A stretch of DNA of 42,313 bases from assembly GCA_937871295.1 (NCBI GenBank), contig CALMRE010000116.1:1-42313 (forward strand), written 5' to 3'. A program made the position numbers and the translations under genes. Source of the DNA: an uncultured bacterium. Lineage in GTDB: Bacteria > UBP6 > UBA1177 > JAKLFG01. Under the pieces are notes generated by a model. The model had not been told where the DNA came from. It did no database searches and saw only the letters and a program-made list of their open reading frames with translations. This document shows positions 332 through 40,412 of this stretch, one piece after another; positions within the stretch are counted from its first letter, which is position 1; the number at the start of each line of letters is the position of its first letter.

Positions 332-1111
332 GTGGCCGAATGGTCCACTGAATTAAGTTCCGTCAAACAGAACGAGATACTGGTGCGGGGCTATCCCGTC
401 GAACAGTTGATGGAGAAGGCCTCCTACACCGACGCCGTCTACCTCCTGTTCAAGGGTGAACTCCCCTCCGCCGCCGAAAGCGCCCTCTTCGCCGCGCTGC
501 TGACCTCCTGCGTCGACCACGGGGTAACGCCCCCTTCCATCCACGCGGCGATGAACGCCGCTTCGACCGGCGCGCCGCTCAATGCCGCGGTCGCCTCGGG
601 GATACTCTCGATCAACCGTTTCCACGGCGGCGCGGTCGAAGATGCGATGGAACTCTTCGCCGAGGCGGTGACGGAGACCGGGCCGTCGGCCGACCGCGTG
701 AAGATCGCCCGGTTCGTCGAAGAGGGGCTCGCAAAGGGACGCCGGTTCCCGGGCTACGGCCACCTCAACCACACCACCGACCCGCGCACCGTGAAACTGG
801 GCGAACTGGCGCGCCGCCACCTGACGCCGGCCCAGCGGATATACGCCGACGCCGCCTTCCTCATCGAGGAGGAGATGGCGCGGCTCAAGGGTAAGAAACT
901 GCCGCTCAACGTCGACGGGATGATCGGGGCGCTCCTGCTCGGACTCGCCTTCCCCCCCGAACTGGCCAACGGTATCTTCATGATATCGCGCGTCCCGGGA
1001 CTCATCGCTCATTATGTCGAAGAGCGCAGGACCCAGAAACCGATGCGCGCCATAGACCCGCACGCCGCGCAGTACGCCGGCAGACCGAAACGCAATATCG
1101 ACAGACCGTGA
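332..1111 (+). CDS. Short citrate-synthase superfamily protein (citryl-CoA lyase-like)
   Basis: A 259-residue member of the citrate synthase fold, shorter than full citrate synthases (about 370-430 residues) and close in size to citryl-CoA lyases and the C-terminal part of ATP-citrate lyase. Family landmarks are visible: a DHG near residues 62-64, RFHGGA at 96-101, the RFPGYGH loop with His144, and NVD with Asp195, matching the catalytic His/His/Asp arrangement of citrate synthase. This suggests a working C-C lyase or condensing enzyme acting on an acyl-CoA, but the substrate cannot be read. The GTG start is chosen because GGAG at 321-324 lies 7 nt upstream. Its stop codon merges into the ribosome site of the next gene, so it is the first gene of the ceramide-like operon. 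Its role in that pathway is unknown. Confidence 0.75.
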   Translation: MAEWSTELSSVKQNEILVRGYPVEQLMEKASYTDAVYLLFKGELPSAAESALFAALLTSCVDHGVTPPSIHAAMNAASTGAPLNAAVASGILSINRFHGGAVEDAMELFAEAVTETGPSADRVKIARFVEEGLAKGRRFPGYGHLNHTTDPRTVKLGELARRHLTPAQRIYADAAFLIEEEMARLKGKKLPLNVDGMIGALLLGLAFPPELANGIFMISRVPGLIAHYVEERRTQKPMRAIDPHAAQYAGRPKRNIDRP

Positions 1112-1121
1112 GGATATACAC

Positions 1122-2318
1122 GTGAGAACGAAAGCCATCTTCGACAAGTGCGACGCCTACCAGCGCACGATCATCGCCAAAAAGGAGGGCTACTACCCCT
1201 ACTTCAAGACCATCATTTCGGAACAGGACACCGAGGTCTATCTGCAGAGCGGCAAGAAGGTCCTCATGCTCGGCTCCAACTCCTACATGGGGCTCACCAA
1301 CCACCCCGAGGTGAAAGAGGCGGCGCGACAGGCCATCACCAAATACGGCAGCGGCTGCGCCGGGTCGCCGTTCCTCAACGGGACGCTCGACATCCATGAG
1401 GAACTGGCCGCCGAACTGGCCGCCTTTGTCGGCAAGGAGGCGGCGCTCCTCTACTCGACCGGCTTCGGCGTCAATCAAGGGGTCATCTCTACCCTCACCG
1501 GACGGCACGACACCATCTTCATGGATGCGCTCAACCATGCCTCGATCATCGAGGGCTCGCGCCTGTCGTTCGCGACGGTCAAACGCTACGAGCACAACGA
1601 CATGGCCGACCTCGAAAAAGCGCTTGCCTCGGTGCCCCGGGAAAAGGGCAAATTCATAGTCGCCGACGGCGTATTCTCTATGGACGGCGATATCGCGAAA
1701 CTCCCGGCCATGGTCGAACTCTCCGAAAAATACGATGCGGTCGTGATGGTCGACGACGCCCATGCGCTCGGCGTACTCGGACCGAAAGGCGACGGCACCG
1801 CCGCCCATTTCGGGCTGATCGACAAGGTCGATCTCATCATGGGGACCTTCAGTAAATCGCTTGCCTCGATCGGCGGCTTCATCGCCGGCGACGCCCAGAC
1901 GATCGAATTCCTCAAACACCACAGCCGCGCGCTCATCTTCAGCGCCTCGATGCCCCCCGCCTCGGCCGCCTCGGCTCTTGCGGCGCTCCGCGTGATGAAA
2001 CGGGAACCGTGGCGCATCGAGAAACTGTGGCACAATACGACCCTGTTGCGCGAAGGGCTCCAGAAACTCGGGTTCAACACCGGCCTGTCCGAGACCCCCG
2101 TCATCCCCTTTTTCGTCGGCGACGACATGAATGCCTTCTTCATGCGCAAGCGGCTCGAGGACGAGGGCATCTTCGTCAATCCGGTCATCAGTCCCGCCGT
2201 CCCGAAGGATCAGGCGCTCATCCGCCTCAGTCTCATGTCGAACCACACCGAGGAGCAGATCGCTTTCGCCCTTGAGAAGATCGCGCTCTGCGGCCGCGAG
2301 ATAGGGATAATACCATGA
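1122..2318 (+). CDS. spt: Serine palmitoyltransferase-like alpha-oxoamine synthase
   Basis: A 398-residue PLP enzyme of the alpha-oxoamine synthase family, which condenses an amino acid with an acyl-CoA (or acyl-ACP) with loss of CO2. Visible are the substrate/PLP region GSGCAGSPFLNGT, the VDDAHALGVLG strand with the PLP-contacting Asp and His, and the Schiff-base lysine K245 in GTFSKSLASIGG. The TFSKS form is typical of serine palmitoyltransferases, whereas glycine C-acetyltransferase (Kbl) and BioF usually read TLGKA. I therefore prefer serine palmitoyltransferase, making 3-keto-sphinganine, the first step to ceramide. The GTG start has AGGA 7 nt upstream. It overlaps the next gene by ATGA, implying translational coupling. 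Kbl or another oxoamine synthase remains possible; the two downstream genes support the sphingolipid reading. Confidence 0.72.
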   Translation: MRTKAIFDKCDAYQRTIIAKKEGYYPYFKTIISEQDTEVYLQSGKKVLMLGSNSYMGLTNHPEVKEAARQAITKYGSGCAGSPFLNGTLDIHEELAAELAAFVGKEAALLYSTGFGVNQGVISTLTGRHDTIFMDALNHASIIEGSRLSFATVKRYEHNDMADLEKALASVPREKGKFIVADGVFSMDGDIAKLPAMVELSEKYDAVVMVDDAHALGVLGPKGDGTAAHFGLIDKVDLIMGTFSKSLASIGGFIAGDAQTIEFLKHHSRALIFSASMPPASAASALAALRVMKREPWRIEKLWHNTTLLREGLQKLGFNTGLSETPVIPFFVGDDMNAFFMRKRLEDEGIFVNPVISPAVPKDQALIRLSLMSNHTEEQIAFALEKIALCGREIGIIP

Positions 2319-3454
2319 TCGAAGTACGCACCGTCACCGACCGTCGATCACTCGGCCATTTTCTCGACCTCCCCTACCGGCTCTACCGCGACGACCCGAA
2401 CTGGGTGCCGCCGCTCCGTTTCGAACGGAAACTGTTCTTCGACCGCAAGAAGAACCCGTTCTTCGAACACGGCGAGGCCGACTATTTCGTCTGCTACCGC
2501 GACGGCAGGCCGGTCGGCCGCATCACCGCCCACATCGACCGCAACTACGATACCTATCATAAGACCCGCCACGGCTTTTTCGGTTTTTTCGAATGCGCGG
2601 ACGATCCGGAGACGGCCCGCGCGCTCATCGAAACGGCCGAGAACTGGCTGAAGGCCCGCAAATACGACCGCATCATCGGGCCGATGAACTTCACCACCAA
2701 TCACGACTCCCCCGGCTTCAGCATATTTGGCGCCGACACTCCGCCCTATCTGATGAATCCCCACACCATGCCCTACTATCCCGATCTGTTCCGTGCCGCC
2801 GGATATGCCGACGAGCAGTTGCTCAACAGTTGGGCGCTCACCGAACCGAAGGACCTGCCACAGGAATTCCACGACCGGGACGAGAAACTCTGCGCGAAAT
2901 ACGGCGACCGCCTGCAGGTGCGCCATATCGATCTCAAGAACCTGCGGCGGGATGTCGACACCATCCTCAAGATATTCAACGAGGCGTGGTGTGACAACTG
3001 GGGCTATGTCCCCATGACCGACCGCGAGATAACGGCGATGGCCGACGAACTGAAACTCATCGTCGACATCCGCCTCACCTACCTGGTGTTCCTCGACGGC
3101 GAACCGGCCGCCTTCATGGTCTCGATGCCCGACATCAACCAGATACTGATCAAGAACCGCAACGGCTCTCTCTTTAGCCGCCATTTTTTCAACCTGCTCT
3201 TCAACAGCAAACGGCACATCAACCAGTTCCGCGTCATGCTGCTTGGGTCGCTCAAGAAATACCGGCTCCTCGGATTTGACGCGCTGATGTATCACCGGCT
3301 CCTTCACGACGGACTCGATACCGGCCACCGCGAGGTCGAGATGTCGTGGATACTCGACACCAACCGGCCGATGAACAACGCCGCCGCCCACATGGGCGCT
3401 CACCTTTTCCAGCAGTATCTCATCCTCGCAAAACCGCTCGACCCGACCGCATGA
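2315..3454 (+). CDS. bcerS: GNAT-fold acyltransferase, candidate bacterial ceramide synthase (YghO-like)
   Basis: A 379-residue protein of the GNAT/YghO-like type. The N-terminal half holds the acyltransferase-like core: DDPNWVPPLRFE near 26-37, RPVGRITAHIDR near 65-76, and the diagnostic IIGPMNFTTNHDSPG region near 124-138. The C-terminal half repeats an acyltransferase-like fold with YLVFLDGEPAAFMVSMPD. From what is known of Caulobacter, bacterial ceramide synthase is a GNAT-like protein unrelated to eukaryotic ceramide synthases and is encoded near spt and an NAD-dependent reductase. Size, family and its place between an SPT-like and a reductase-like gene fit that role: acylating the amino group of the sphingoid base. 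Start and stop overlap both neighbours by 4 nt. The family call is firm; the substrate is inferred from context. Confidence 0.62.
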   Translation: MIEVRTVTDRRSLGHFLDLPYRLYRDDPNWVPPLRFERKLFFDRKKNPFFEHGEADYFVCYRDGRPVGRITAHIDRNYDTYHKTRHGFFGFFECADDPETARALIETAENWLKARKYDRIIGPMNFTTNHDSPGFSIFGADTPPYLMNPHTMPYYPDLFRAAGYADEQLLNSWALTEPKDLPQEFHDRDEKLCAKYGDRLQVRHIDLKNLRRDVDTILKIFNEAWCDNWGYVPMTDREITAMADELKLIVDIRLTYLVFLDGEPAAFMVSMPDINQILIKNRNGSLFSRHFFNLLFNSKRHINQFRVMLLGSLKKYRLLGFDALMYHRLLHDGLDTGHREVEMSWILDTNRPMNNAAAHMGAHLFQQYLILAKPLDPTA

Positions 3455-4437
3455 AAGATACTCTCGTCACCGGCGCTACCGGCTTCATCGGCAGTTATCT
3501 GACCGAAGAATTGCGTGCCCGGGGGCACCGTTTACGGCTACTCGTTAGACGGCGGAATGCGGCGGTCGAACAATTCGAAAAAAATGACGCCAAGATATTT
3601 ATCGGCGATTTTACCGATAACGACATCGTTCGGCGCGCGGTCGAGAACTGCGGCACCGTCATCCATGTCGCCGGCGCGACCAAGAAGAACAGCGAGAAGG
3701 AGTACCTCGAAGGGAACACCCTTTTCACCGAAAAACTGCTCGCACCGCTCGCCAAAGAGCAGCGCTTTATCCTCATCAGTTCACAGGCGGCCGCCGGCCC
3801 ATCGACCGGAAATAGGTCGGTGACGGAAAGCGACCCCCCGCGCCCCCTCACCTGGTACGGGAGATCGAAACTGGCCGCCGAGGAGGCGGTGAAACGCTGG
3901 GGAGCCGACCCCGACGACAACTACCTGATACTCCGCCCCTGTTCGGTCTTCGGGCCGGGCGAACGCGACATCTACACCATTTTCAGGATGCTCGACCGCG
4001 GCGTGCTTACCCTTCTGGGGACCGGCGAAAAACGCTTTTCGGTGGTCTATGTCGCCGACCTTTCCGCCGCCATCATCGCGGCGGCCGAGGGAGGGGTGAC
4101 CGGCAAAACCTTTTTCGTATCCAACGACGCACCGGTATCGTGGCGCGAATTCAGCGAAGAGATCCGTGTCGCGATGGGCAAAAAACGGGTCCTGCGGCTG
4201 ATGATACCCGAATGGCTCGCCGCTCCGGTCGGCCATACTGCGGGACTGATCGGCAAAATGGTCGGGAAGACCTTTCCGGTCAACGGCCAGAAGGTCATCG
4301 AGATGAAACAGGAGGCGTGGATATGCGCCAACGACGCGATAAAAAAGGAACTCGGCTGGCGGCAACGGACCACGCTCGACCGGGCGATGCGCGACACCGT
4401 CGAATGGTACCGCCGCAACGGCTGGCTTTCGGCGTGA
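3451..4437 (+). CDS. cerR: NAD-dependent epimerase/dehydratase family reductase, candidate ceramide reductase
   Basis: A 328-residue extended short-chain dehydrogenase. [10 protein letters not shown] near residues 8-17 is the NAD(P)-binding glycine motif and WYGRSK gives the catalytic Tyr136 and Lys140 (YxxxK). The family includes sugar epimerases, 3-beta-hydroxysteroid dehydrogenases and the bacterial ceramide reductase CerR. In Caulobacter CerR reduces the 3-keto group after N-acylation, so an SPT, GNAT, reductase gene order gives a complete ceramide path. The ATG at 3451 overlaps the preceding stop codon (ATGA). An in-frame upstream extension to 3346 lies inside the previous gene and is rejected. 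A sugar-nucleotide epimerase acting with the WbpD/WbpE-like genes downstream is the main alternative. Confidence 0.6.
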
Positions 4438-4450
4438 AACGGAGGAGACG

Positions 4451-5023
4451 ATGAGCGAAACATTCATCCATGAAAGCAGTTACGTCGACGAGGATGTGCA
4501 GATAGGCGCCGGCACCAAGATATGGTTCTTCTGCCATGTGCTGACCGGGTCGCGCATCGGCGCCGACTCTTCGTTCGGCCAGAACTGCATGATAGGTCCG
4601 CGCGCCATCGTCGGCAACGGCGTCCGGGTGCAGAACAATGTCAGCATCTATGAAGGGGTCGTCATCGAGGACGATGTCTTCCTCGGCCCCTCGATGGTCT
4701 TCACCAATGTGATAAACCCGCGCAGTTTCATACCGCGCAAGGATGAATACCGTAAAACGCTCCTGAAAAAAGGGTGTTCGGTCGGCGCGAACGCCACCAT
4801 CGTCTGCGGGGTCACCATCGGCGAATATGCCTTTGTCGGCGCCGGAACGGTCGTGACCAAGGATGTTCCCGCCTACGCGCTGGTCTACGGTAACCCGGCA
4901 AAACAGCACGGGTGGGTCGGCCGGTCGGGCAACAAGCTCACCTTCGGCAGGGAGGGGATCACCACCGACGCGAGCGACGGCGCCCGCTATGAACTCGAGA
5001 ATGGAAAAGTGAGGCCGCTGTGA
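4451..5023 (+). CDS. wbpD: Left-handed beta-helix N-acetyltransferase, WbpD/WlbB-like
   Basis: A 190-residue hexapeptide-repeat acetyltransferase, the usual length for WbpD/WlbB. Repeats run from about residue 10 to 160 ([42 protein letters not shown]), with the loop [17 protein letters not shown] typical of the family. WbpD acetylates the 3-amino group of UDP-2-acetamido-3-amino-2,3-dideoxyglucuronate using acetyl-CoA; the next gene is the matching aminotransferase type. AGGAG sits just upstream of the ATG. It follows the reductase gene by 13 nt and overlaps the next gene by GTGA, so it belongs to the same operon as the lipid genes. The WbpA- and WbpB-type dehydrogenases that complete the pathway are not in this operon. 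Confidence 0.8.
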
Positions 5024-6123
5024 AGAATAACATACCGCTCATCGATCTGGCGACGCAGTACCGCGCCTATAAAGAAGAGATGGACACCGCCATGGGGAAG
5101 GTCTGCGAACGGGCCTCTTTCATTATGGGACCGGAGGTGACCGAACTGGAAAGAAAACTCGTCCTTTTCTGCGGTGCCGACCGCTGCGTCACCTGCGCCA
5201 ACGGCACCGACGCGCTGGTGTTGGCGCTCCGAGCCCTCGATATCGGCCCCGGCGACGAGGTGATCACCTCCGCTTTTTCCTTCATCGCCACGGCCGAGGC
5301 CATCGCCACGGTCGGCGCCACGCCGGTATTCATAGACATCGAACCCGACACCTGTCTCATCGACGCGAAGAAGATAGAGAACAAGGTCACCGCCCGGACG
5401 CGCGCCATCATCCCGGTCAGTCTCTACGGACAATGCCCCGATATCGATGCGGTCAACGCCATCGCGGCGCGCCATGAACTGACCGTCATCGAGGATGCGG
5501 CGCAGAGTTTCGGCGCCCGCTACAAGAACGGGAAGAGTTGCGCCATCACCCGGCTCGCGACCACCAGTTTCTTCCCCGCCAAACCGCTCGGCTGCTACGG
5601 CGACGGCGGCGCGGTCTTCACCGACGACCCCGCCCTTGCAGAGAAGATAGCATCCCTGCGGCTTCACGGGCAATCGAAACGCTACTACCACCGCCACATC
5701 GGCATGAACTCGCGGCTCGACACGCTGCAGGCGGCGGTATTGCTGGTAAAACTCGCTCACTTCCCCGCCGAGATAGAGGAACGCCAGCGGATCGCCCGCC
5801 ACTACGACAAACTGCTTGCCGGCCTGCCGCTCGAACGGCCGATCGTCCATAACGGGCGGCTTTCGGTCTGGGCTCAGTACGCCGTCCGGGTGAAGGATCG
5901 CGATACCGTCGCGCAGAAACTGAATGATGCCGGCGTCGCGACCGCCGTCCATTATCCCCTGCCGCTCCATCTGCAGGAGGTCTTCGCGCCGCTCGGCCAT
6001 CGACCGGGATCGCTTCCGGTCGCCGAAGAAGCGGCCCGCACGGTACTCTCGCTCCCGATGAGCGCCTTTGTGGCAGCGGAGCAGCAGAAGCAGATCGCCG
6101 ATGCGCTTGCTGCGGCACTGTGA
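5020..6123 (+). CDS. wbpE: DegT/DnrJ/EryC1 sugar aminotransferase, WbpE-like
   Basis: A 367-residue PLP-dependent sugar-nucleotide aminotransferase. It begins [18 protein letters not shown], carries the [12 protein letters not shown] phosphate-binding region, the [10 protein letters not shown] aspartate region, and the PLP lysine K188 in [15 protein letters not shown]. These match WbpE/WlbC, which converts a UDP-3-keto-GlcNAcA to the 3-amino sugar that WbpD then acetylates. The GTG start overlaps the preceding TGA (GTGA) with GAGG 5 nt upstream. Last gene of the first operon; a promoter for the polysaccharide genes follows. Exact sugar substrate is inferred from the paired acetyltransferase. 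Confidence 0.8.
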
Positions 6124-6174: not shown

Positions 6175-6210
6175 TACCTCGTTTTTTGAAGACAGCGCTT
6201 CGGGTTGAAG

Positions 6211-7251
6211 ATGGAACGGATCGTCAGCATAACGCTTCTTGCGCTCGCCTTTATTATAGGGTGTAGGCACACCGAACACTACGGGAAACAGATGGCGGGC
6301 AAGGAACTCCCCTTCGCCCCTCTTTCGGCCGAGAACGATGTTAAGGAACTGTTAGCCGACGGTGACGAATATCGCATCGGCACCGGCGATGAACTCAAGG
6401 TCGATGTCTACAACATCCCTGAACTCAGTTCCAAATCGATGTCGATCAGTCAGTTCTTCGGGCAGGTAGTGGATGAAAAGGGAGAGATATTGTTTCCCAT
6501 CATCAAGAGCATCAAGGTCGGCGGTCTCACCAAGAAGGAGGCGGCACAGGCGATAGAAGAGCGGCTCAAGGAGTTCGTCAAGAACCCCGACGTTTCTATG
6601 GAGATCGTTAAGTTCCAGAGTAAATTCTATTATATAACAGGCGCCTCAAACAATAATGGCAAATACAACATCACCCCCACCACGACCATCATGGAGGCGC
6701 TTTCTCGTATCACCCCGCTCGCCACTTCAAGTTCTGTGACGATGGCCAATACCATTTACCTCAAGCGCGATGAAAAGGTTATCCCTCTTTCGATAACCGA
6801 GGTCAGTAAGTCGCAGACCGACTATTCCCGGATCCGCATCCATAACGGCGACACCTTCTTCGTTCCTCCCGCATCGGCCGAACGGGTTTACATTGTCGGC
6901 GAGATCGCGCGCCCGGGAGCCTACCAGATAACCAAACCCGATTACACCGTACTCGACCTTATCGCCGAGGCGGGCGGCGTCAACCCGGTGACAGCCGACA
7001 CCACCGCCCTGTATCTCGTCCGGCAGTACGGCGGTAAATTCCAGTACGCGGTGCTCGATTACCACAAAATAATCGGCGGCGATTCCGGTAGCGACCTGCG
7101 CCTCCAGCCGGGCGACCGGCTCGTCGTTTCTCCGACCGGTCTGGCCAGTTACAACCGCATCATCGAACAACTGCTTCCGACCTTCCAGATGATCAACTCC
7201 ATCACCGGCACCATAAAGAATGTGATCGACATCTCCAACGGCGGAAAGTGA
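6211..7251 (+). CDS. wza: Polysaccharide export outer-membrane lipoprotein (Wza family)
   Basis: A 346-residue export protein. The N-terminus is a lipoprotein signal (LALAFIIGC, lipidated Cys18). A Poly_export domain starts at about residue 50 (EYRIGTGDELKVDVYN), followed by two SLBB-type segments (near 140-215 and from VYIVGEIARPGAYQ onward). Wza-family proteins form the outer-membrane channel through which capsule or exopolysaccharide leaves the cell and pair with a Wzc-type inner-membrane partner, here the next gene, 7 nt downstream. Neither candidate start has a strong ribosome site. ATG 6211 is preferred over TTG 6205, which would add only Met-Lys. Confidence 0.88.
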   Translation: MERIVSITLLALAFIIGCRHTEHYGKQMAGKELPFAPLSAENDVKELLADGDEYRIGTGDELKVDVYNIPELSSKSMSISQFFGQVVDEKGEILFPIIKSIKVGGLTKKEAAQAIEERLKEFVKNPDVSMEIVKFQSKFYYITGASNNNGKYNITPTTTIMEALSRITPLATSSSVTMANTIYLKRDEKVIPLSITEVSKSQTDYSRIRIHNGDTFFVPPASAERVYIVGEIARPGAYQITKPDYTVLDLIAEAGGVNPVTADTTALYLVRQYGGKFQYAVLDYHKIIGGDSGSDLRLQPGDRLVVSPTGLASYNRIIEQLLPTFQMINSITGTIKNVIDISNGGK

Positions 7252-31603: not shown

Positions 31604-31651
31604 CGCCTTGTGATTGACTGTCGCCGACCATCCGTCGGCATCGGAGGAACC

Positions 31652-32875
31652 ATGATCATTTCATTCAGTTTTGAGAACTTCTTTTCCTTCCTTGAACGGA
31701 CAGAGGTGTCGTTCCTCGCCGGGAAACAGGACCCCGACACCGCCCACTACACCACCACCGACACCGGCCTTCGCCTATCAAAAATGATGAGCGTGATCGG
31801 GGCGAACGGGAGTGGCAAAACAAACATCCTTCGCGCTTACAACTTCCTCATGCATGTCATGCGCGATTCTTTTAAGTTCAATCCGGATCAGGAACTGCCT
31901 CTCGATCAATTTCTCTTTACCGGAGAACCGCGCCAAGAAACCTCTTTTTCTCTACTCTTCGAACTGGACAAATTCCTTTACCGTTACGAACTCTCACTTA
32001 CCAAGAAACAGATAGTGAACGAGGTTCTATCGGTTAAAACCGAAAGTAATTTTCGCTATCTGTTTAAGCGCACATTGGATAAAGAAAGCGGCACATACAC
32101 AGTACGCGAGCAAGATTTCGGAAAAAAAGTCGAAACCATCGCATCGGGAATATTGAACAGCCGCCGTAACGCCACATTATTCTCAGGCCTCATCTTTGCC
32201 AACTATGAACCGATCAAACCGATAGCGGACTATCTTCTCGGCCACACAACGAATGTCGGAAGGATGGGAGTAATCGCGCTACCTTTCTTGACGAACCCCG
32301 AAATGGTAGCCTCTCAATGCATGGCGTCCCCTGAAATACGAACAGCCATCGAATCGCTTATGGCGCGCATAGACCTCGGCATCAGTGGAATAGACATTCG
32401 GGAGGTACGATTCCCCGAAGAGGCCAAGAAGCAGATGAACGCCGATAAATTCTATACTCCGTTCGCTAAACATACGGTAAATGGCACCGAGTATACACTA
32501 CACTTCAGCATGGAGTCGGGCGGCACACAGAGTCTCTTTGTCTTGCTATACCATATACTCACTGCTTTATCGAGGCCGGGGATAGCGGTCATGGATGAAT
32601 TAGAGGCCAGTCTACATCCCCATATGATACCGGCGATACTCGATCTTTTTATCTCTCCCGAAAGCAATCCTCATAACACACAATTACTGTTCACCTCGCA
32701 CAGCCTCGAAGTTCTCAACCATCTTGACAAGAACCAGATCGTACTCGTCGAGAAGAACCCCGAAACATTGATGAGCGAGGCATGGCGGCTCGATGAAATG
32801 ACCGGCGTTCGTCGCGACGACAATCTCTACGCCAAATACATGGCGGGCCGCTACGGCGCCGTCCCGCGGCTGTAA
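31652..32875 (+). CDS. AAA ATPase, RloA-type (AAA_15/OLD-like)
   Basis: A 407-residue ABC/SMC-like AAA ATPase. It opens MIISFSFENFFSFLERTEVSF, the usual N-terminal strand of AAA_15 proteins. The Walker A is GANGSGKT at 50-57; the signature SMESGGTQSLF lies near 285-295, and the Walker B region AVMDELEASLHPHM near 312-325 with the catalytic Asp-Glu; the H-motif is FTSHSLEVL. RloA-type ATPases pair with a Toprim partner, as OLD and PARIS do, and are found in defence islands. The ATG has GGAGG 4 nt upstream and the RloB-like gene begins 11 nt after its stop. Lower GC than the neighbours suggests recent arrival. Confidence 0.82.
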   Translation: MIISFSFENFFSFLERTEVSFLAGKQDPDTAHYTTTDTGLRLSKMMSVIGANGSGKTNILRAYNFLMHVMRDSFKFNPDQELPLDQFLFTGEPRQETSFSLLFELDKFLYRYELSLTKKQIVNEVLSVKTESNFRYLFKRTLDKESGTYTVREQDFGKKVETIASGILNSRRNATLFSGLIFANYEPIKPIADYLLGHTTNVGRMGVIALPFLTNPEMVASQCMASPEIRTAIESLMARIDLGISGIDIREVRFPEEAKKQMNADKFYTPFAKHTVNGTEYTLHFSMESGGTQSLFVLLYHILTALSRPGIAVMDELEASLHPHMIPAILDLFISPESNPHNTQLLFTSHSLEVLNHLDKNQIVLVEKNPETLMSEAWRLDEMTGVRRDDNLYAKYMAGRYGAVPRL

Positions 32876-32886
32876 GGAGGCGGACG

Positions 32887-33423
32887 ATGTCACGCACCGA
32901 CCCACACAAGAAAAAACCGCGCGCACCACAGAAAACGCTTCTCATCGTATGCGAAGGATATACAGAATATGCTTTTGTGACATATCTGAAAGGAGCGTAT
33001 ACCACCCGATCAAGCGGACATATCCACATTCAGAATGCCTACGGCGGAGACCCGGTTTCCATCGTGCGTGTCGCCGAAAAAATGCTCGCATCGCGCGACT
33101 TCAACCGTTGCTTGCTGGTGTTCGACAGCGATCGAATGGGAACAACAACGAAGCCAAAGAACATCCATTGCGATTCCGTTAAACACATTATTCCAGACCC
33201 TTGCATTGAGAATCTCTTTCTTCGCGTCTTGAACAGCAAATTCATTCCAAGAACAACGGACCTATGCAAAAAAGAATTCGACAAAAAACACCTGGGCTCG
33301 CATAAAAAGACCGAACCAGCGACCTACACCATTCTTTTTCCCAAGATACTACTGGAAAAAAGACGAGGCTCAATCACCGAACTCGACCAGCTTATCAGTA
33401 TTATTAAAAACTGTGGATGGTGA
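32887..33423 (+). CDS. RloB-like protein (Toprim-type nuclease partner)
   Basis: A 178-residue RloB-family protein. LLIVCEGYTEYAFVTYLK near 18-35 carries the first acidic residue, CLLVFDSDRM near 75-84 the D-x-D pair, and IPDPCIENLFL near 101-111 the family's C-terminal motif. Together these are the Toprim-like metal-binding set. Its ATPase partner lies 11 nt upstream; in related systems (OLD, PARIS) the ATPase senses a phage trigger and releases or activates a Toprim nuclease. GGAGG is 6 nt before the ATG. The product is slightly shorter than usual RloB. Its stop overlaps the possible GTG start of the next gene. Confidence 0.78.
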   Translation: MSRTDPHKKKPRAPQKTLLIVCEGYTEYAFVTYLKGAYTTRSSGHIHIQNAYGGDPVSIVRVAEKMLASRDFNRCLLVFDSDRMGTTTKPKNIHCDSVKHIIPDPCIENLFLRVLNSKFIPRTTDLCKKEFDKKHLGSHKKTEPATYTILFPKILLEKRRGSITELDQLISIIKNCGW

Positions 33424-33427
33424 ACGA

Positions 33428-34510
33428 GTGACCATCGCCCGCATCGTTGCCGACAAAAGTCTTACCAATCTGACGCTGGCCGGGAAGGCGGCGGCTCGTT
33501 ACGGGCTGACCATCGAGCGGCTGACCAAGGATGAACTGGTCGCCGAGATAACCGCCCTGCCGCTTGAGGAGCGTTACCGGCGGGCGAAGCGGACGCTGTT
33601 CTTCACCACCCGCAAGGGTCCGTTCCTCTCCACCTGCCGCTGTCCCTCCGGCGCCGACTACCGCTGCTGCGGCTACCATACCATTCAGAGCGTGTCGGGC
33701 TGCCCGTTCGACTGTTCCTACTGCATTTTACAGCACTACATCGGCAACAACCCCTTCATTTCGATATTCGTGAATCGTGAGACGATAGAAACGGAGATGC
33801 GGGAACACCTTGTAAAACACAACCATATCCGTGTCGGCACCGGCGAACTGGCCGACAGCCTCGCGCTCGACGACCTGCTCGATGAATCGGGCTTCTTCCT
33901 CTCGATGATCGCCCGGAACGGCTGGGAGAAGCGCGTCACCTTCGAGTTCAAGACCAAATCGGACCGTGTCGACACCCTCATCGCGACGCACCAGCGGCAT
34001 CCGGCCGTTGACTGCGTCGCCGGATTCACCCTGACGCTCGACCGTTTCCATGCGACCGACGAGATCGGCACCGCCCCGGTACTGGCACGACTTCACGCGG
34101 CGGCCCGCTGTGCGGCGGCCGGAGTGCGGGTGGCGTTCCATTTCGATCCGCTGGTGATGCAGGAACAGTTCCTCGACGATTACCGGCTCCTCGCGGCTCA
34201 GGCACTCGATGCGGTACCGCACGAAAAGATCGCGTGGATAAGCCTCGGCGGCCTGCGCCATACCGTTTCGATGACCGACCTCATCCGCCGCCGTTGGCCC
34301 GCTTCAACGCTCACGCTCGGCGAGATGTTCCCGTCGGCCGACGACCATAAACTCCGCCCCTTCGCGCCGCTCCGCGCCCGGTTCTACCGCGCCATCGCCG
34401 AAACGATACGAAAACATATCCCCGAACCGCCGCTCTACCTCTGCATGGAGAAAGAGTTCATGTGGGAACGGGTGGGAGGACTGAAATGGAACCATTCTCG
34501 ATCGATCTGA
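33428..34510 (+). CDS. Spore photoproduct lyase-family radical SAM protein
   Basis: A 360-residue radical SAM protein. The S-adenosylmethionine 4Fe-4S motif is Cys92-x3-Cys96-x2-Cys99 in SGCPFDCSYCILQHY. An upstream cysteine group (TCRCPSGADYRCCGYH, residues 69-84) is typical of the SPL-like family in non-sporulating bacteria. It may repair or process a thymine photoproduct or another substrate; real spore photoproduct lyases occur in endospore formers, and nothing else here suggests sporulation. I chose GTG 33428 just after the RloB stop; an earlier GTG at 33413 overlaps rloB. It is probably co-transcribed from rloA-rloB, which sit where its own promoter should be. Confidence 0.8.
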   Translation: MTIARIVADKSLTNLTLAGKAAARYGLTIERLTKDELVAEITALPLEERYRRAKRTLFFTTRKGPFLSTCRCPSGADYRCCGYHTIQSVSGCPFDCSYCILQHYIGNNPFISIFVNRETIETEMREHLVKHNHIRVGTGELADSLALDDLLDESGFFLSMIARNGWEKRVTFEFKTKSDRVDTLIATHQRHPAVDCVAGFTLTLDRFHATDEIGTAPVLARLHAAARCAAAGVRVAFHFDPLVMQEQFLDDYRLLAAQALDAVPHEKIAWISLGGLRHTVSMTDLIRRRWPASTLTLGEMFPSADDHKLRPFAPLRARFYRAIAETIRKHIPEPPLYLCMEKEFMWERVGGLKWNHSRSI

Positions 34511-35598
34511 AACGGTTGGCGGCCGAATTGCCGCTGCCTTTCGACTTTGACGGACCCTCGCCCGACCCGACGCGCACCGCGCTCATCGCGCTGGGCAAAT
34601 CGGCCCGTTTCATGCTCTCCCGCTTTCTGGCAACCCATCCGGCTTACGCGACGGCTCACAGCATCGCGATATTCCCTGAAGGGCTGACCGACGATCTCGC
34701 TCTGCCGTCGCAGACGCTCCTCATCCCCTCGACCCATCCCCGGCTGACCGAAAAGAGTTTCGTCGCCGGGAAAGCGCTCATGGATTTCGTCACGACCCAC
34801 GCGCACCTCGACCGGTTCATCTGCCTCCTTTCGGGCGGCGCCTCGGCGCTCGTCGAACAAAGCGACGACCCGGCGGCCCACATCGCGTGGTGGCATGACC
34901 TGCTTCACGCGGGGCTTCCCATCGAGGAGATGAACCGCCGCCGGATAGCCCGCTCGGCGATAAAGGGGGGAAAACTGACCGACTTTGCGCCGCACAGCCG
35001 CTTCACCACCTTCGTGATGAGCGATATCCCCGCCGAGACCGGCTATCGGCTCGCCGGGTCGATGCCCTTCTGGCGCGACGGCGACGAGCGGTTGACGCTC
35101 CGGTGCATTGCCGACTGCACCACCCTCCACCGCTGGTACGAGGAACAACTCCGGTCGCAGGGCTATCGGGTCGCTTTCTCTAAAACCCGTTTCGCGGGGA
35201 CCGTGGCCGAACTTACCGCTTTGATAACGGCCGAAAAGGGGCGGTTGACCCCCGGAGAAGCGCTCCTGATGACCGGCGAACCGATCCTCAAGGTCGATAT
35301 CCCCCACCCCGGCCACGGCGGCCGGATGGCCCATCTTGCCCTTCTGCTGGCCACGGAATCGCGCGGGGATGAGACGCTCTATGCACTATCGAGCGACGGC
35401 ATCGACGGCTCTTCCGACTATGCCGGGGTCGTCGTGACGCCCGAAGCGCGAAAACATTTCGACCTCACCCTGCGCGACGATCATCTTGCGCGATTCGACG
35501 CCTATCCCTTTTTCGAACGGTACGGCTGTGCGGTAAAGACCGGCTACACCGGCATCAATCTCAACGACGCGGTGGTGATCACCATGCCCATTCGATAA
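34486..35598 (+). CDS. MOFRL-family glycerate 2-kinase, short form
   Basis: A 370-residue member of the glycerate kinase (GckA/TtuD) family, which phosphorylates D-glycerate to 2-phosphoglycerate. It is shorter than the usual 420-450 residues. Visible landmarks: FICLLSGGASALVE near 112-125, RRRIARSAIKGGKLTDFA, GEPILKVDIPHPGHGGRMAHLA and SSDGIDGSSDYAGVVV near the end. ATG 34486 has GGGAGGA 5 nt upstream, inside the preceding gene (25-bp overlap). The stop overlaps the convergent symporter gene by 20 bp. The glucosylglycerate genes on the other strand give a link: hydrolysis of glucosylglycerate yields glycerate. Confidence 0.8.
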   Translation: MEPFSIDLKRLAAELPLPFDFDGPSPDPTRTALIALGKSARFMLSRFLATHPAYATAHSIAIFPEGLTDDLALPSQTLLIPSTHPRLTEKSFVAGKALMDFVTTHAHLDRFICLLSGGASALVEQSDDPAAHIAWWHDLLHAGLPIEEMNRRRIARSAIKGGKLTDFAPHSRFTTFVMSDIPAETGYRLAGSMPFWRDGDERLTLRCIADCTTLHRWYEEQLRSQGYRVAFSKTRFAGTVAELTALITAEKGRLTPGEALLMTGEPILKVDIPHPGHGGRMAHLALLLATESRGDETLYALSSDGIDGSSDYAGVVVTPEARKHFDLTLRDDHLARFDAYPFFERYGCAVKTGYTGINLNDAVVITMPIR

Positions 35599-37144
35599 GG
35601 GCGCCGCACAGTACGATAACGACGAACCATCCCAGCAGTACCCACACGATACGGCCATGCCAAGGCAACGGCTCCGTATGCGCGGAGACGGGCTCAACCC
35701 CTTTTCCGACGGCAAGCGCCGCGAGAGTGCAGACGGCGAATCCGACGAGGTTCCACCACATCCAGCTGACCTGATCGCCGTGCCGGAGCCAGAGATAGAG
35801 GTTCGCGGCAACACCGGCGGCAAGACCGAGGAGCGCCCCCGGGCCGCTCACCCGCCGGAACAGGATGCCCAGAATGAATACCGCCGCCACCGGCCCGTAA
35901 AAGGCCGACCCGATCTTGTTGACCAGTTCGATGACGGTATCATGCCCCCCGCCGAGCCACAGGGCGAAGAGTATCGAGATACCGCCCCAGAAGGCGGCGA
36001 TGAGACGCGACCAGCGGACCTTCGCGCGGTCGGCGATGAGATCGAGCGACGGCCGGAAGCGCACCAGAAAATCGTTCCAACTCGCGGCGGAGAGCGAATT
36101 GACCGCCGAATCTATCGACGACATCGACGCGGCAAAGACCCCGGCGATGATCAGCCCCAGAAAACCGGTCGGGACATGGTGCAGAAAAAAAGTAGGCATC
36201 AGATAATCGGGCGGCAGCGCGGCGACCTGCGCGCTGAAATAGGGATGCGACGCCATGAACGGGAGCATCAGCACGCCGAGCGGGCAGTAGGTCAGGCCGA
36301 GCGGGTAGCGCAGGATACCGTTGAGCGCCAGCGCCTTGGCCGATTCGCCGGGCCCTTTGGTGCTCAGCAGCCGCTGGGCCTGCGTCTGGTCGCAACCGTA
36401 ATAGGAAAGATAGAGGAACAGGCCGCCGAACAGCATCGGCCAGAAGGAGAAGGTCGCCCCGTCCACGATGCCGTTCCGGGAGAACTCGAACACCGAAAGC
36501 CGCCCCTGCCATTGGGCGAATTCCCACCCGCCGACGGGTATCTGGAGGGCGATGATGACGCCGCAGACCAGCGCGGCGAACCATAACACCCCCAGTTGGA
36601 TGATGTCTGAGTAGATGTCGGCCCGTATGCCGCCCCATATCGTGTAGAGCACCGATACCGCGCCGACCAGCACGATGGTCATGGTCAGGCCGATGTCGAG
36701 ACAGACCGCCGTCACATAGGAGGTGGCGAGGAGCGCAACGCCGGTGCCCATCGAGCGGCTGAGAAGGAATATGGCGCTTACCGCCAGCCGGACCGCGACG
36801 CCGAACCGTTCCTGCAGATAGCCGTAAATGGTGAATCCGCGATTCTTCCAGTAGGCCGGAAGGAGGATCGCGATGATCGGTATCATCGCCAGCGGCACCG
36901 CCATCTCGTACTGGAGCCAAGTAAGTCCGCCGCCGCTTTTAACGGCGATGAAGGCGGGTGCGCCGATAAGACTGACGGCGCTCACCTGATTGGCGACCAG
37001 CGACAGCCCCACCTGCCACCACGGTATCGTTTCACCCGCGATATAATATTCCTTCTGGTCGCGCTGGCGGCGACCGATAAAGAACCCCATGCCGAGAATG
37101 ACCGCCAGATAGACGGCGAGTATCGCCCAGTCGAGCGGCTTCAT
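35579..37144 (-). CDS. Sodium:solute symporter (SSS/SLC5 family)
   Basis: A 521-residue transporter with about 13 hydrophobic segments. DWAILAVYLAVILGMGFFIG opens TM1; WWQVGLSLVANQVSAVSLIGAP is the first sodium-site helix and GGIRADIYSDIIQ the conserved intracellular motif of SLC5 proteins. It imports a solute with Na+. Substrate cannot be read. Being the last gene of the glucosylglycerate operon (its ATG overlaps the gpgS stop by ATGA) suggests a sugar, sugar acid or compatible solute. Its 3' end overlaps the convergent glycerate-kinase gene by 20 bp. Confidence 0.88.
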   Translation of the reverse strand: MKPLDWAILAVYLAVILGMGFFIGRRQRDQKEYYIAGETIPWWQVGLSLVANQVSAVSLIGAPAFIAVKSGGGLTWLQYEMAVPLAMIPIIAILLPAYWKNRGFTIYGYLQERFGVAVRLAVSAIFLLSRSMGTGVALLATSYVTAVCLDIGLTMTIVLVGAVSVLYTIWGGIRADIYSDIIQLGVLWFAALVCGVIIALQIPVGGWEFAQWQGRLSVFEFSRNGIVDGATFSFWPMLFGGLFLYLSYYGCDQTQAQRLLSTKGPGESAKALALNGILRYPLGLTYCPLGVLMLPFMASHPYFSAQVAALPPDYLMPTFFLHHVPTGFLGLIIAGVFAASMSSIDSAVNSLSAASWNDFLVRFRPSLDLIADRAKVRWSRLIAAFWGGISILFALWLGGGHDTVIELVNKIGSAFYGPVAAVFILGILFRRVSGPGALLGLAAGVAANLYLWLRHGDQVSWMWWNLVGFAVCTLAALAVGKGVEPVSAHTEPLPWHGRIVWVLLGWFVVIVLCGALIEWAW

Positions 37145-38355
37145 CCGTTATGCTTTTCCACGATGGCGAACAAGCGGTCCTGCAGGTCGGGGATCGCCGC
37201 GCGGACCCGCACCCATGCCGACATGAGCGGTATGCCGACCGGGTCGCGGGAGAATTCCTCCTGCGCCCGTTTGATCGAGCCGACGAACACCTCGGTCGCA
37301 CCGACCTCGGCGTTCCGGTCATAGGTAAGGCCGTTGAGCGATGCGAGCCCGTTGTATTTCTCTATCGCCTTGCGCGATTCCTGAATGTAGGTCGAAAGAA
37401 GCGTGCGGAAGAAGGAATCGGACATCACATAACCATCCTGACTGAGCACCCGGAACAGCGCCTGCGCGATGTCCTCGGCCATCCGCGACAGACCGGCCGA
37501 AGGATCGTCCTTTGAAAGTTCGCGGTGTTTGTGCTCGTAGGTGTCGAGTATCTCGACCTGACAGACACGGTTGACATTGGTCTGCTGATAAACCTCCGAG
37601 AGCATTGAGACCTCGAGCCCCCATGTCGGCGATATGCGTATGGAGCGGGCCAGTTCGCCGATGCAGGCGAATTCGCCCGACAGCGCGTAACGGAACGAAT
37701 CGAGGAAATCGAGGAACGGCCGGTTGCCGAGTATCTTGGTGAGCGACCGGAGAAGCGGCGTGTAGAAAATGCGGGTGACGCGGCCGTAGAGCCGGTCGGT
37801 GGCGCGGGCGTAATACCCCTTGCTGAACTCGAAATTGAGCGCCGGGTGGACGATGGGATACACCAGCCGGGCCAGCAGTTCCCGTGAATAGTTGACGATA
37901 TCGCAGTCATGCAGCGCTATGGCGCAGGCTTCGGTCTCATGATCGGCGAGAATATAGCCGAGCGACAGCCACACCGACCGGCCCTTTCCCGGTATCCGCA
38001 CATTGAAGCCGGCGACATCGAGTTCGTCGTAGATCGCCTTGATATCGGGACTGTCCTGCCACAGAACGCGGCATTCCGCGGGGAGACCGTTCATGATGCC
38101 CCGCACCCGATGGAACTGCGCTTCGTCGGCCTTGTCGAGCGACAGCACGATCTTTTTAAGGTACGGAACACCGCGTAGTTCCTCGATGATACGCGGCATG
38201 GCCGGCCCCTCGAATTCACTGTAGAGGGCCGGTAAAAGCAGGATCACCGATCGTTGCCGCGAAAAATCCCGCAACTCCGCTTCGATCTCGGCGACCGGCC
38301 GCTCGCCGATCCGCTGGAGCGTCGCGATGACGCCGTTCTGGAAAAAATCGGTCAT
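37141..38355 (-). CDS. gpgS: Glucosyl-3-phosphoglycerate synthase
   Basis: A 404-residue GT81-type glycosyltransferase. It joins an NDP-glucose and 3-phosphoglycerate to give glucosyl-3-phosphoglycerate. Family blocks are strong: LLPALYSEFEGPAMPRIIEE at 40-59, IPGKGRSVWLSLGYILA at 121-137, the HDCD metal motif at 149-152, FEFSKGYYARATDRLYGRV and ISPTWGLEVSMLSE. ATG 38355 has GGGGAGG 6 nt upstream and overlaps the next upstream gene by ATGA; a longer start inside that gene is rejected. The phosphatase two genes upstream completes the two-step route to glucosylglycerate. Confidence 0.88.
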   Translation of the reverse strand: MTDFFQNGVIATLQRIGERPVAEIEAELRDFSRQRSVILLLPALYSEFEGPAMPRIIEELRGVPYLKKIVLSLDKADEAQFHRVRGIMNGLPAECRVLWQDSPDIKAIYDELDVAGFNVRIPGKGRSVWLSLGYILADHETEACAIALHDCDIVNYSRELLARLVYPIVHPALNFEFSKGYYARATDRLYGRVTRIFYTPLLRSLTKILGNRPFLDFLDSFRYALSGEFACIGELARSIRISPTWGLEVSMLSEVYQQTNVNRVCQVEILDTYEHKHRELSKDDPSAGLSRMAEDIAQALFRVLSQDGYVMSDSFFRTLLSTYIQESRKAIEKYNGLASLNGLTYDRNAEVGATEVFVGSIKRAQEEFSRDPVGIPLMSAWVRVRAAIPDLQDRLFAIVEKHNG

Positions 38356-39605
38356 GATGCGCCTCCCCTCTCCCATTTCTCTATCAGGTACGGTTTCATT
38401 TTCTCAAAGAGCGATGCCTGCTCCTCGAAAAAGAGCTCGGCGCCATCGCCGTCCCGGTCCTTGAGGGCATGCACCAGACTGGCGACCCGGCCATAGTAAA
38501 GCGGCACCATCGTGCTCAACAGTTTGAACCGCTGGACCGGCGTCGCCCTCAGAGCGCAGGCGTAGTCGTACACGATACGGACCCACGCCTGATCCGGAAG
38601 CCGCAGCGGACAGCAGTCGCTTTCGGCCAGTTGTTTGACCGCCGCGAAGTCGTCGGTCCCGATGATCCGCTCCCAGACACCGGCGAAGTTCTGGTATCCC
38701 ACCTTGAAATATTCGATAAGCGCCGCCTCATTGATCTCGAAAGGTTTCACCTCGGCGCCGACGAAGTTGCCGAACGACGGCACCTCTATCTCAGGATGCT
38801 CTTTTTTCCAGAAATCCTCATGTTCCTCCATGAGTTGGAACACGGTGCCGACCACCTCCCGGAACATACCCGACAGATCGGAGGAGGGATCCTTCTCGCC
38901 GTGCACCTTCGCCCCGAGCCGCGCCTGACAGGCGAGAAAACCGCCGGTGACCGCGGTGATCGTCATCCAGATATCGATGCCGAAACGGGCCACATCGGTC
39001 TCCCACACATCCTGATCGAGATAATGTTTCGCCAGTTTGCGCGACACGGCGAAATCGCCGCCGATCGGCTGTCGGATGCGGGCGCCGAACAGGGCGCGCG
39101 TAAGGTTGTAGACGATGGTATTGGTGATCGTGCCGTCGAATTTATAGCGGCGGTACTGCGGTGCGACGAAATCGTAGCCCGAGAAGACCGGCCCGGCGAG
39201 ATTCTGCACCCATTCGGGGTTTATCGACTTGAGATCGCTGTCGAAGAAGAGGATCGCCTTCGCCTTGAGAAAGGTCCCCGCCTCGAGTATCTCGCGCATC
39301 GCCGAGCCTTTGCCCGGTATGCCGCGGTAGATCGACGACACCTTGTGGACATTGGGATAGTTCAGAGCGACCTGCGCGATGGTCTCGCGGGTGTCGTCGG
39401 TCGACCCGCCGTCGGAGGCGATGATCAGCGCCCGCATCCCGCCGAAATAGCGGTTCAGCCCCGCCGCCGCCATCCGGATGACATGGACCACCGATTCTTC
39501 GCTGAAATAACAGGGTATCCCCACGACAATGTCGACTTGGCCGAGCTGTTCTATCTCGCGACGGGTCGATTCTCGCATCGCCGAGAAAAAGCGTTTTTTT
39601 GTCAT
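38352..39605 (-). CDS. GT-A glycosyltransferase, mannosyl/glucosylglycerate synthase-like
   Basis: A 417-residue GT-A enzyme. VDIVVGIPCYFSEESV at 24-39 starts the nucleotide-binding fold, SDGGSTDDT follows, IPGKGSAMREI at 96-106 and the metal-binding DSD at 122-124 match MGS/GGS-type synthases, and QPIGGDFAVSRKLA plus FGIDIWMTITAV are the acceptor-side blocks. Such enzymes can transfer a sugar directly to D-glycerate in one step, or extend a glycosylglycerate. Present with gpgS and the phosphatase, it suggests either two parallel routes or a longer solute such as a di-hexosyl glycerate. AGGAG is 6 nt before the ATG. Confidence 0.7.
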   Translation of the reverse strand: MTKKRFFSAMRESTRREIEQLGQVDIVVGIPCYFSEESVVHVIRMAAAGLNRYFGGMRALIIASDGGSTDDTRETIAQVALNYPNVHKVSSIYRGIPGKGSAMREILEAGTFLKAKAILFFDSDLKSINPEWVQNLAGPVFSGYDFVAPQYRRYKFDGTITNTIVYNLTRALFGARIRQPIGGDFAVSRKLAKHYLDQDVWETDVARFGIDIWMTITAVTGGFLACQARLGAKVHGEKDPSSDLSGMFREVVGTVFQLMEEHEDFWKKEHPEIEVPSFGNFVGAEVKPFEINEAALIEYFKVGYQNFAGVWERIIGTDDFAAVKQLAESDCCPLRLPDQAWVRIVYDYACALRATPVQRFKLLSTMVPLYYGRVASLVHALKDRDGDGAELFFEEQASLFEKMKPYLIEKWERGGAS

Positions 39606-39614
39606 GGGAAACTC

Positions 39615-40412
39615 CTATGGGTTATTCAATAACATTTCAACGCTCTCCACCCAACCGCGCGGCGCCGGATGTTCCGCCCGCATAAGACGCGGATGCTCGA
39701 ACGGCTCGTGCGGCAGGCCGGGACGCGGGATGAGCACCGCGACATCGGCCCGCGCGAGCATCGGCAGGTCGTTCAAGCCGTCACCGAGCGCCACCACCGG
39801 ACCAAGCCCGGCATCAAGATGCCGATAACGCGCGATCAGCCGGTCGACGGCGGACCCCTTATCGACGCCGACACCCATCAAATGGTGGAATCGCCCCCCC
39901 TTGGTGACCGACAACCCCGCTTCGGCGGCCCATTGGACGATAAGGGGCAAATAACCGGGCTCCTTCGGCAGGAACGGCTCCGAGAACATCCGCTCTTTTG
40001 CCGCCGTTGCCGCCTCAAGCGAAAGACCGGTCAATTGCGCCACTTCCGGCGCGGTCAGATCACCGAAGCCGGTCAACCGTCCCTTCATGCGACGTGAAGC
40101 GATGAACCGCCGTATCGCGGCATAACTCGGCCCGAGTGGTTCAAGAAGATATCCCTGCCGCAGCGGCTCCAGAGCCTCCTGCGCCAGCGGATGAGCCGTC
40201 GGGATGGCGATGCCGCCGCCGTTCTCTACGATGAACGGCTCGGTCAGACCAAGTTCCCTATGAAGCGGCGTCGTCTCGGTGAAGGTCTTGGAGGAAACGA
40301 GCACCACCGGGATGCGGTGTTCGATCAATCTGCGCATAAGCGGCCGCACCTCTTCGTACCGGTAGTCGTCATGCCCTATCAGCGTGGCGTCGATATCGGT
40401 GAAGATGATCAT
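39615..40412 (-). CDS. Mannosyl/glucosyl-3-phosphoglycerate phosphatase (HAD family)
   Basis: A 265-residue HAD phosphatase of the MpgP/GpgP type. The nucleophile Asp6 lies in FTDIDATLIG, SSKTFTE is motif II, and GDGLNDLPMLA motif IV. Family-specific blocks FSEPF and KGGRFHHLMGVGVDKGSAV are present. It removes phosphate from glucosyl-3-phosphoglycerate to give glucosylglycerate. GGAG is 4 nt before the ATG. It starts 13 nt after the small gene upstream and is 9 nt before the next gene, so it is clearly in one operon with the two glycosyltransferases. Confidence 0.86.
   Translation of the reverse strand: MIIFTDIDATLIGHDDYRYEEVRPLMRRLIEHRIPVVLVSSKTFTETTPLHRELGLTEPFIVENGGGIAIPTAHPLAQEALEPLRQGYLLEPLGPSYAAIRRFIASRRMKGRLTGFGDLTAPEVAQLTGLSLEAATAAKERMFSEPFLPKEPGYLPLIVQWAAEAGLSVTKGGRFHHLMGVGVDKGSAVDRLIARYRHLDAGLGPVVALGDGLNDLPMLARADVAVLIPRPGLPHEPFEHPRLMRAEHPAPRGWVESVEMLLNNP

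Follow-up and report, generated by a model that had tools for sequence, protein, structure and literature searches.

A compact three-gene operon for predicted dihydroceramide synthesis in an uncultured bacterial phylum

Three contiguous genes of an uncultured bacterium very likely encode a dihydroceramide pathway (we put the probability at roughly 0.85). The predicted products are a serine palmitoyltransferase (SPT), an N-acyltransferase of the bCerS type and a CerR-type reductase. This assignment draws on linkage, since all three genes were found together in 39 of the 75 bCerS loci examined outside the order of the host. The genes lie in a window of 42,313 nucleotides (the whole stretch of DNA that was analysed), which is contig C116 of a 3.45-Mb MAG with 99.3% completeness. 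The original prediction that this organism makes sphingolipids was supported, as a predicted pathway, by the SPT clade of the synthase, the YghO-family GNAT protein, the CerR-type SDR and the linkage of the triad. The pathway itself is already known, and the operon of the host is one more member. The parts worth pursuing are a setting without lipid A genes and an altered loop in the SPT; the novelty is otherwise modest.

The region from 1122 to 4437 is filled by three plus-strand open reading frames of 398, 379 and 328 amino acids (Table 1). The coupling by ATGA that had been reported for these genes was read at both junctions, at 2315-2318 between spt and bcerS (accATGAtcg) and at 3451-3454 between bcerS and cerR (cgcATGAaag). 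A promoter scan upstream of the operon gave no signal above chance. The bcerS-type gene is present as a single copy in the host genome.

Table 1. Positions of the operon genes, the altered synthase loop and the neighbouring genes in the window
Feature	Position	Strand	Basis or remark
Citryl-CoA lyase-like protein, citrate synthase family	332..1111	+	NF004869, 232.9 bits (cut-off 212); 10 bp upstream of spt
spt, predicted serine palmitoyltransferase (alpha-oxoamine synthase, Bacteroidota/CFB type)	1122..2318	+	398 aa, GTG start; NCBIfam, PDB scores, tree, residues
spt codons 82-84 (S-P-F), loop by the substrate-carboxylate Ser	1365..1373	+	Pro83 for Arg, order-wide
bcerS-type N-acyltransferase (YghO family), tandem GNAT fold	2315..3454	+	379 aa; overlaps spt
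cerR-type NAD(P)-dependent reductase (extended SDR)	3451..4437	+	328 aa; overlaps bcerS
Hexapeptide-repeat acetyltransferase	4451..5023	+	13 bp downstream of cerR; start of polysaccharide locus
DegT/DnrJ/EryC1 sugar aminotransferase	5020..6123	+	PF01041, E 1.6e-115; kept in L018, L019 and L022
Wza-like polysaccharide export protein, outer-membrane locus marker	6205..7251	+	PF02563, SLBB, Wza_C

The first protein belongs to the Aminotran_1_2 family of Pfam (E 7e-58), and among the NCBIfam models it matched NF047600 (SerpalmtaseCFB, the Bacteroidota SPT) best, with 596.7 bits and a lead of 181 bits over the next model at 416. This score is under the equivalog cut-off of 640 bits, while the Parabacteroides SPT reached 683.8 bits. 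The shortfall weakens certainty about the exact substrate and leaves the placement in the SPT clade intact. In a maximum-likelihood tree of 66 sequences, the protein fell into a 13-row clade (support 100/98) with the SPTs of Sphingobacterium and Parabacteroides. The GTFSKS motif that had been taken as SPT-style is present, with the lysine at position 245, in a protein that shares its clade with proven Bacteroidota SPTs. Of the PLP and serine residues, N53, S82, H139, D211, H214 and K245, corresponding to Asn52, Ser81, His138, Asp210, His213 and Lys244 of the reference SmSPT, are all kept, as is R368. Both the synthase and the acyltransferase appear nearer to the Bacteroidota and candidate-phylum versions than to the Rhodobacterial type of Caulobacter.

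Two other identities of the synthase were weighed against this placement. If it were Kbl, BioF or another short-chain alpha-oxoamine synthase, the operon might serve threonine or biotin metabolism or a secondary metabolite. These enzymes form one superfamily with 35-40% identity, and with the models for Kbl and BioF the protein also exceeded 400 bits. However, tree, scores and gene neighbours all favour SPT. The clade of the predicted SPT excluded the Kbl and BioF of E. coli as well as two paralogues from the host genome itself (C10 and C12). A constraint forcing the synthases of the order to Kbl cost 39 log-likelihood units and was rejected (p-AU 0.028), so that the phylogeny separating SPT from Kbl and BioF came out on the side of SPT. 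A Kbl or BioF identity was thus discarded on the tree, the scores and the AU test, and we regard it as very improbable. Equally hard to credit is a cluster making a sulfonolipid of the capnine type, with cysteate replacing serine. Such lipids arise by an analogous synthesis with a related synthase and have been found in Bacteroidota (PMC9304779). Against the PDB set, the best match was the Sphingobacterium SPT (8guh/3a2b) with 463 bits, followed by another alpha-oxoamine synthase group with 302, Kbl with 285, cysteate acyltransferase with only 253 and E. coli BioF with about 209; the low score of the cysteate enzyme led us to reject this candidate.

The amino acid used by the predicted SPT is a more serious matter. 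Position 83, which adjoins the contact of the serine carboxylate, Ser82, carries Pro in each of seven non-redundant sequences from the order, which represent two families, whereas the 52 further SPT-clade sequences compared all have Arg. Throughout the order the loop reads GSPFLNG in place of GSRFLNG; the Arg of GSR that the order lacks is not a published defining residue. Because the score lies below the cut-off (597 of 640) and Pro83 replaces an otherwise kept Arg, serine specificity of the predicted SPT is not assured. The product of the operon might be ceramide-like but built on a different amino acid, as is 1-deoxyceramide when alanine is used, with an altered synthase loop and a co-diverged acyltransferase. 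This would agree with the long branch and the lineage-specific residues of the acyltransferase, and bacterial 1-deoxyceramides are known in anaerobic waters (PMC11334938). In the SPT of S. multivorum, the loop from Gly80 to Asn85 shapes the amino-acid substrate pocket, but the Arg of that loop is not named as a substrate contact in the available part of the report (PMC10196870). The reported serine, carboxylate and PLP contacts, including Ser82, Asn53 and His139, are also kept, and on balance we consider use of another amino acid unlikely, though deserving some weight. The order-wide change to Pro83 offers a specific handle on the determinants of SPT amino-acid choice.

The second gene had been described as encoding an acyltransferase of YghO/GNAT fold, and this description held. 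The protein is 34% identical to E. coli YghO over 99% of its length. The Pfam GNAT call was marginal (PF13480, 20.9 bits, under the cut-off). An AlphaFold model built on an alignment of 46 sequences had a pLDDT of 91.8, and its best PDB matches were tandem GNATs with TM scores of 0.57-0.63, followed by mycothiol synthase, FemX and N-myristoyltransferase. The yghO gene of E. coli B has been named as a homologue of Caulobacter CC_1154, which is required for ceramide (PMC9386255). As for a place outside the bCerS clade, which would have spoken against the original prediction, the protein shares its full-length family with YghO and with SPT-linked GNATs of many phyla. When 88 family members were placed in a tree, the acyltransferases of its own family sat on a long stem (0.85), and the protein deviates from the wider family at about 16 positions that are otherwise nearly invariant. 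The universally conserved residues G68, G90, G122, P123, N129, W225, N228, W229, E238, R306, G311, W345 and N350 are retained.

The third protein is an Epimerase-family member (Pfam, E 1.3e-38). Both motifs named for an NAD-dependent reductase were found, GxxGxxG as G8-A-T-G-F-I-G14 and YxxxK as Y136-G-R-S-K140. Family models were unspecific, and the best NCBIfam match, HpnA, was far under its cut-off. In a quick tree of this broad family, the protein grouped with SPT-linked SDRs, including the epimerase/dehydratase of the E. coli acp-spt cluster, and apart from sugar epimerases, with RfaD outside. The assignment to CerR is a prediction from this tree and the gene context. The protein has no N-terminal extension. 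Its Rossmann motif begins at residue 8 and leaves no space for a signal peptide, which suggests a cytoplasmic location; Caulobacter CerR, in contrast, is periplasmic (PMC11087976).

We infer the following reactions from these families. Spt would condense L-serine with a long-chain acyl thioester to 3-ketosphinganine. The acyl donor is probably acyl-CoA, since no AcpR or AasR genes adjoin the operon. The YghO-family tandem-GNAT enzyme would N-acylate the long-chain base, and the SDR reductase would reduce the 3-keto group, with acylation and reduction in either order. The original prediction had compared the operon with Caulobacter, where acylation was said to precede reduction. The three enzyme types were recovered, but published work disagrees on the order of the steps, and sequence does not reveal it. 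Even in Caulobacter the last two steps are disputed, one group placing acylation first and another reduction, and a Bacteroides enzyme directly reduces 3-ketosphinganine (PMC9278070).

The three-gene arrangement is not a product of chance, because within the order the triad is conserved with identities of 40-92%, families f1 and f3 being those that retain it, and it recurs outside the order. The acyltransferase had at least 583 relatives in a scan of GTDB genomes, from which 80 loci were kept, 75 of them outside the order of the window. All three genes were present in 43 of the 80, and 18 had spt, bcerS and cerR in this order on one strand. Plasmid-borne triads of adjacent genes were also found in Rubrobacter, Aureispira and Streptomyces. 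Published work on the Black Sea had already reported Spt-like genes from 38 phyla, many of them accompanied by co-located genes for bCerS and CerR (PMC11334938). Within the order, family f2 (genome G001) kept bcerS and cerR behind a citryl-CoA lyase-like gene, and SPT was not found in this 94%-complete assembly. Neither the 15 genomes of a sister genus, g8, nor the three of family f4 have the acyltransferase. A search for literature linking Sumerlaeota to sphingolipid synthesis returned nothing useful. The points that count against the ceramide reading are the sub-threshold score and Pro83 of the synthase, the departures of the acyltransferase, the breadth of the reductase family and the missing SPT in G001.

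Several known systems were compared with the operon. Caulobacter crescentus has the same three enzyme families in Spt (CC_1162), bCerS (CC_1154) and CerR (CC_1164), all required for its ceramide (PMC9386255), and a shared chemistry would follow by analogy. Its bcerS lies several genes from spt, while the genes of the host are contiguous and overlapping. Caulobacter, the Rhodobacterial type, also requires AcpR (CC_1163) and AasR (CC_1165) (PMC9386255, PMC11087976), whereas no ACP or acyl-ACP synthetase gene, the mark of the Rhodobacterial cluster, adjoins the host operon. The nearest characterised relatives of the synthase are the Bacteroidota SPTs of its clade, that of Parabacteroides having 58% identity, and the host differs from them in the Pro at 83. 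In Parabacteroides, unlike the host, spt is separate from the acyltransferase and reductase genes. The E. coli YghO cluster (yghO, acyl-AMP ligase, epimerase, acp and spt) carries the same three activities, but its genes differ in order and strand, its SPT is ACP-dependent and belongs to a different subgroup, and LptF/LptG-like genes lie nearby. It is intact in E. coli B and on plasmid NZ_MG591698. In E. coli K-12 (locus L105, 12147-13341), yghO is disrupted at its 5' end by an overlapping IS5 and the other genes of the cluster are missing, while the cluster is intact in locus L104. Operons for SPT, bCerS and CerR in Gemmatimonadota, Zixibacteria, Rubrobacter, Streptomyces and other groups have the same gene content and in some cases the same order with 4-bp overlaps. 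Their proteins share about 35-59% identity with those of the host, depending on the protein, and they keep the Arg of the SPT loop.

The envelope of the phylum gives the operon its setting. Among 28 phylum genomes (G000-G027), BamA (Omp85) was found in all, LpxC in one (G017) and LpxB above the cut-off in none; the lone LpxC may be contamination. The LpxC model was positive in the controls E. coli, Caulobacter, Synechococcus and Bacteroides, and 41 of 48 bCerS-bearing genomes tested from elsewhere had LpxC. Because BamA is kept while LpxC and LpxB are missing, the phylum is probably diderm without lipid A, as far as gene content can tell. The absence of LptD was discounted as evidence, since its model also failed to detect the protein in Bacteroides, a control that bears LPS. 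In Sphingomonas, sphingolipids replace LPS (PMC11087976, PMC11324152). The lipid-A-less setting therefore makes outer-leaflet sphingolipids a testable idea, and it is plausible that ceramides of the host, perhaps with sugar head groups, would be found in this layer of the outer membrane. A strict replacement of LPS by sphingolipid was weakened as a candidate by genus g8 and family f4, in which both the lipid A genes and the acyltransferase are missing. We consider it decidedly unlikely that the whole of a bolder proposal applies, namely that the outer leaflet consists of ceramide lipids sugar-capped via the neighbouring polysaccharide locus, and that the altered SPT loop and the diverged acyltransferase give an unusual long-chain base fitted to this role. 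What the analysis adds is a complete, compact ceramide operon placed in a small uncultured phylum with BamA and without LpxC and LpxB. If ceramides do stand in for LPS here, this would mark a further origin of the replacement, in a lineage distant from Sphingomonas, and the three contiguous genes are a ready test set for this idea.

The genes flanking the operon are kept to differing degrees. The position of the hexapeptide-repeat acetyltransferase is kept in six further loci (L010, L011, L012, L013, L018 and L019). The citryl-CoA lyase-like gene adjoins bcerS also in the f2 locus (L022), and from this position we initially favoured it as a fourth member of the pathway. It is, however, the sole citrate-synthase-family gene of the order and is present in the ceramide-less genomes G006 and G013 too, so this candidate was dropped, and a functional tie to ceramide is doubtful. 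In the 99%-complete host genome it was the only gene of this family found with PF00285, and no full-length citrate synthase was found.

Two further loci of the window were noted. An AAA ATPase and a RloB-like protein at 31610-33423 form an AbiL defence pair (AbiLi/AbiLii, called by PADLOC) within a local stretch of low GC (0.48-0.54). The segment from 34462 to 40412 holds a glycerate kinase-like gene, a sodium:solute symporter, a mannosylglycerate-synthase-like glycosyltransferase and a HAD phosphatase, and is likely a compatible-solute cluster for mannosyl- or glucosylglycerate.
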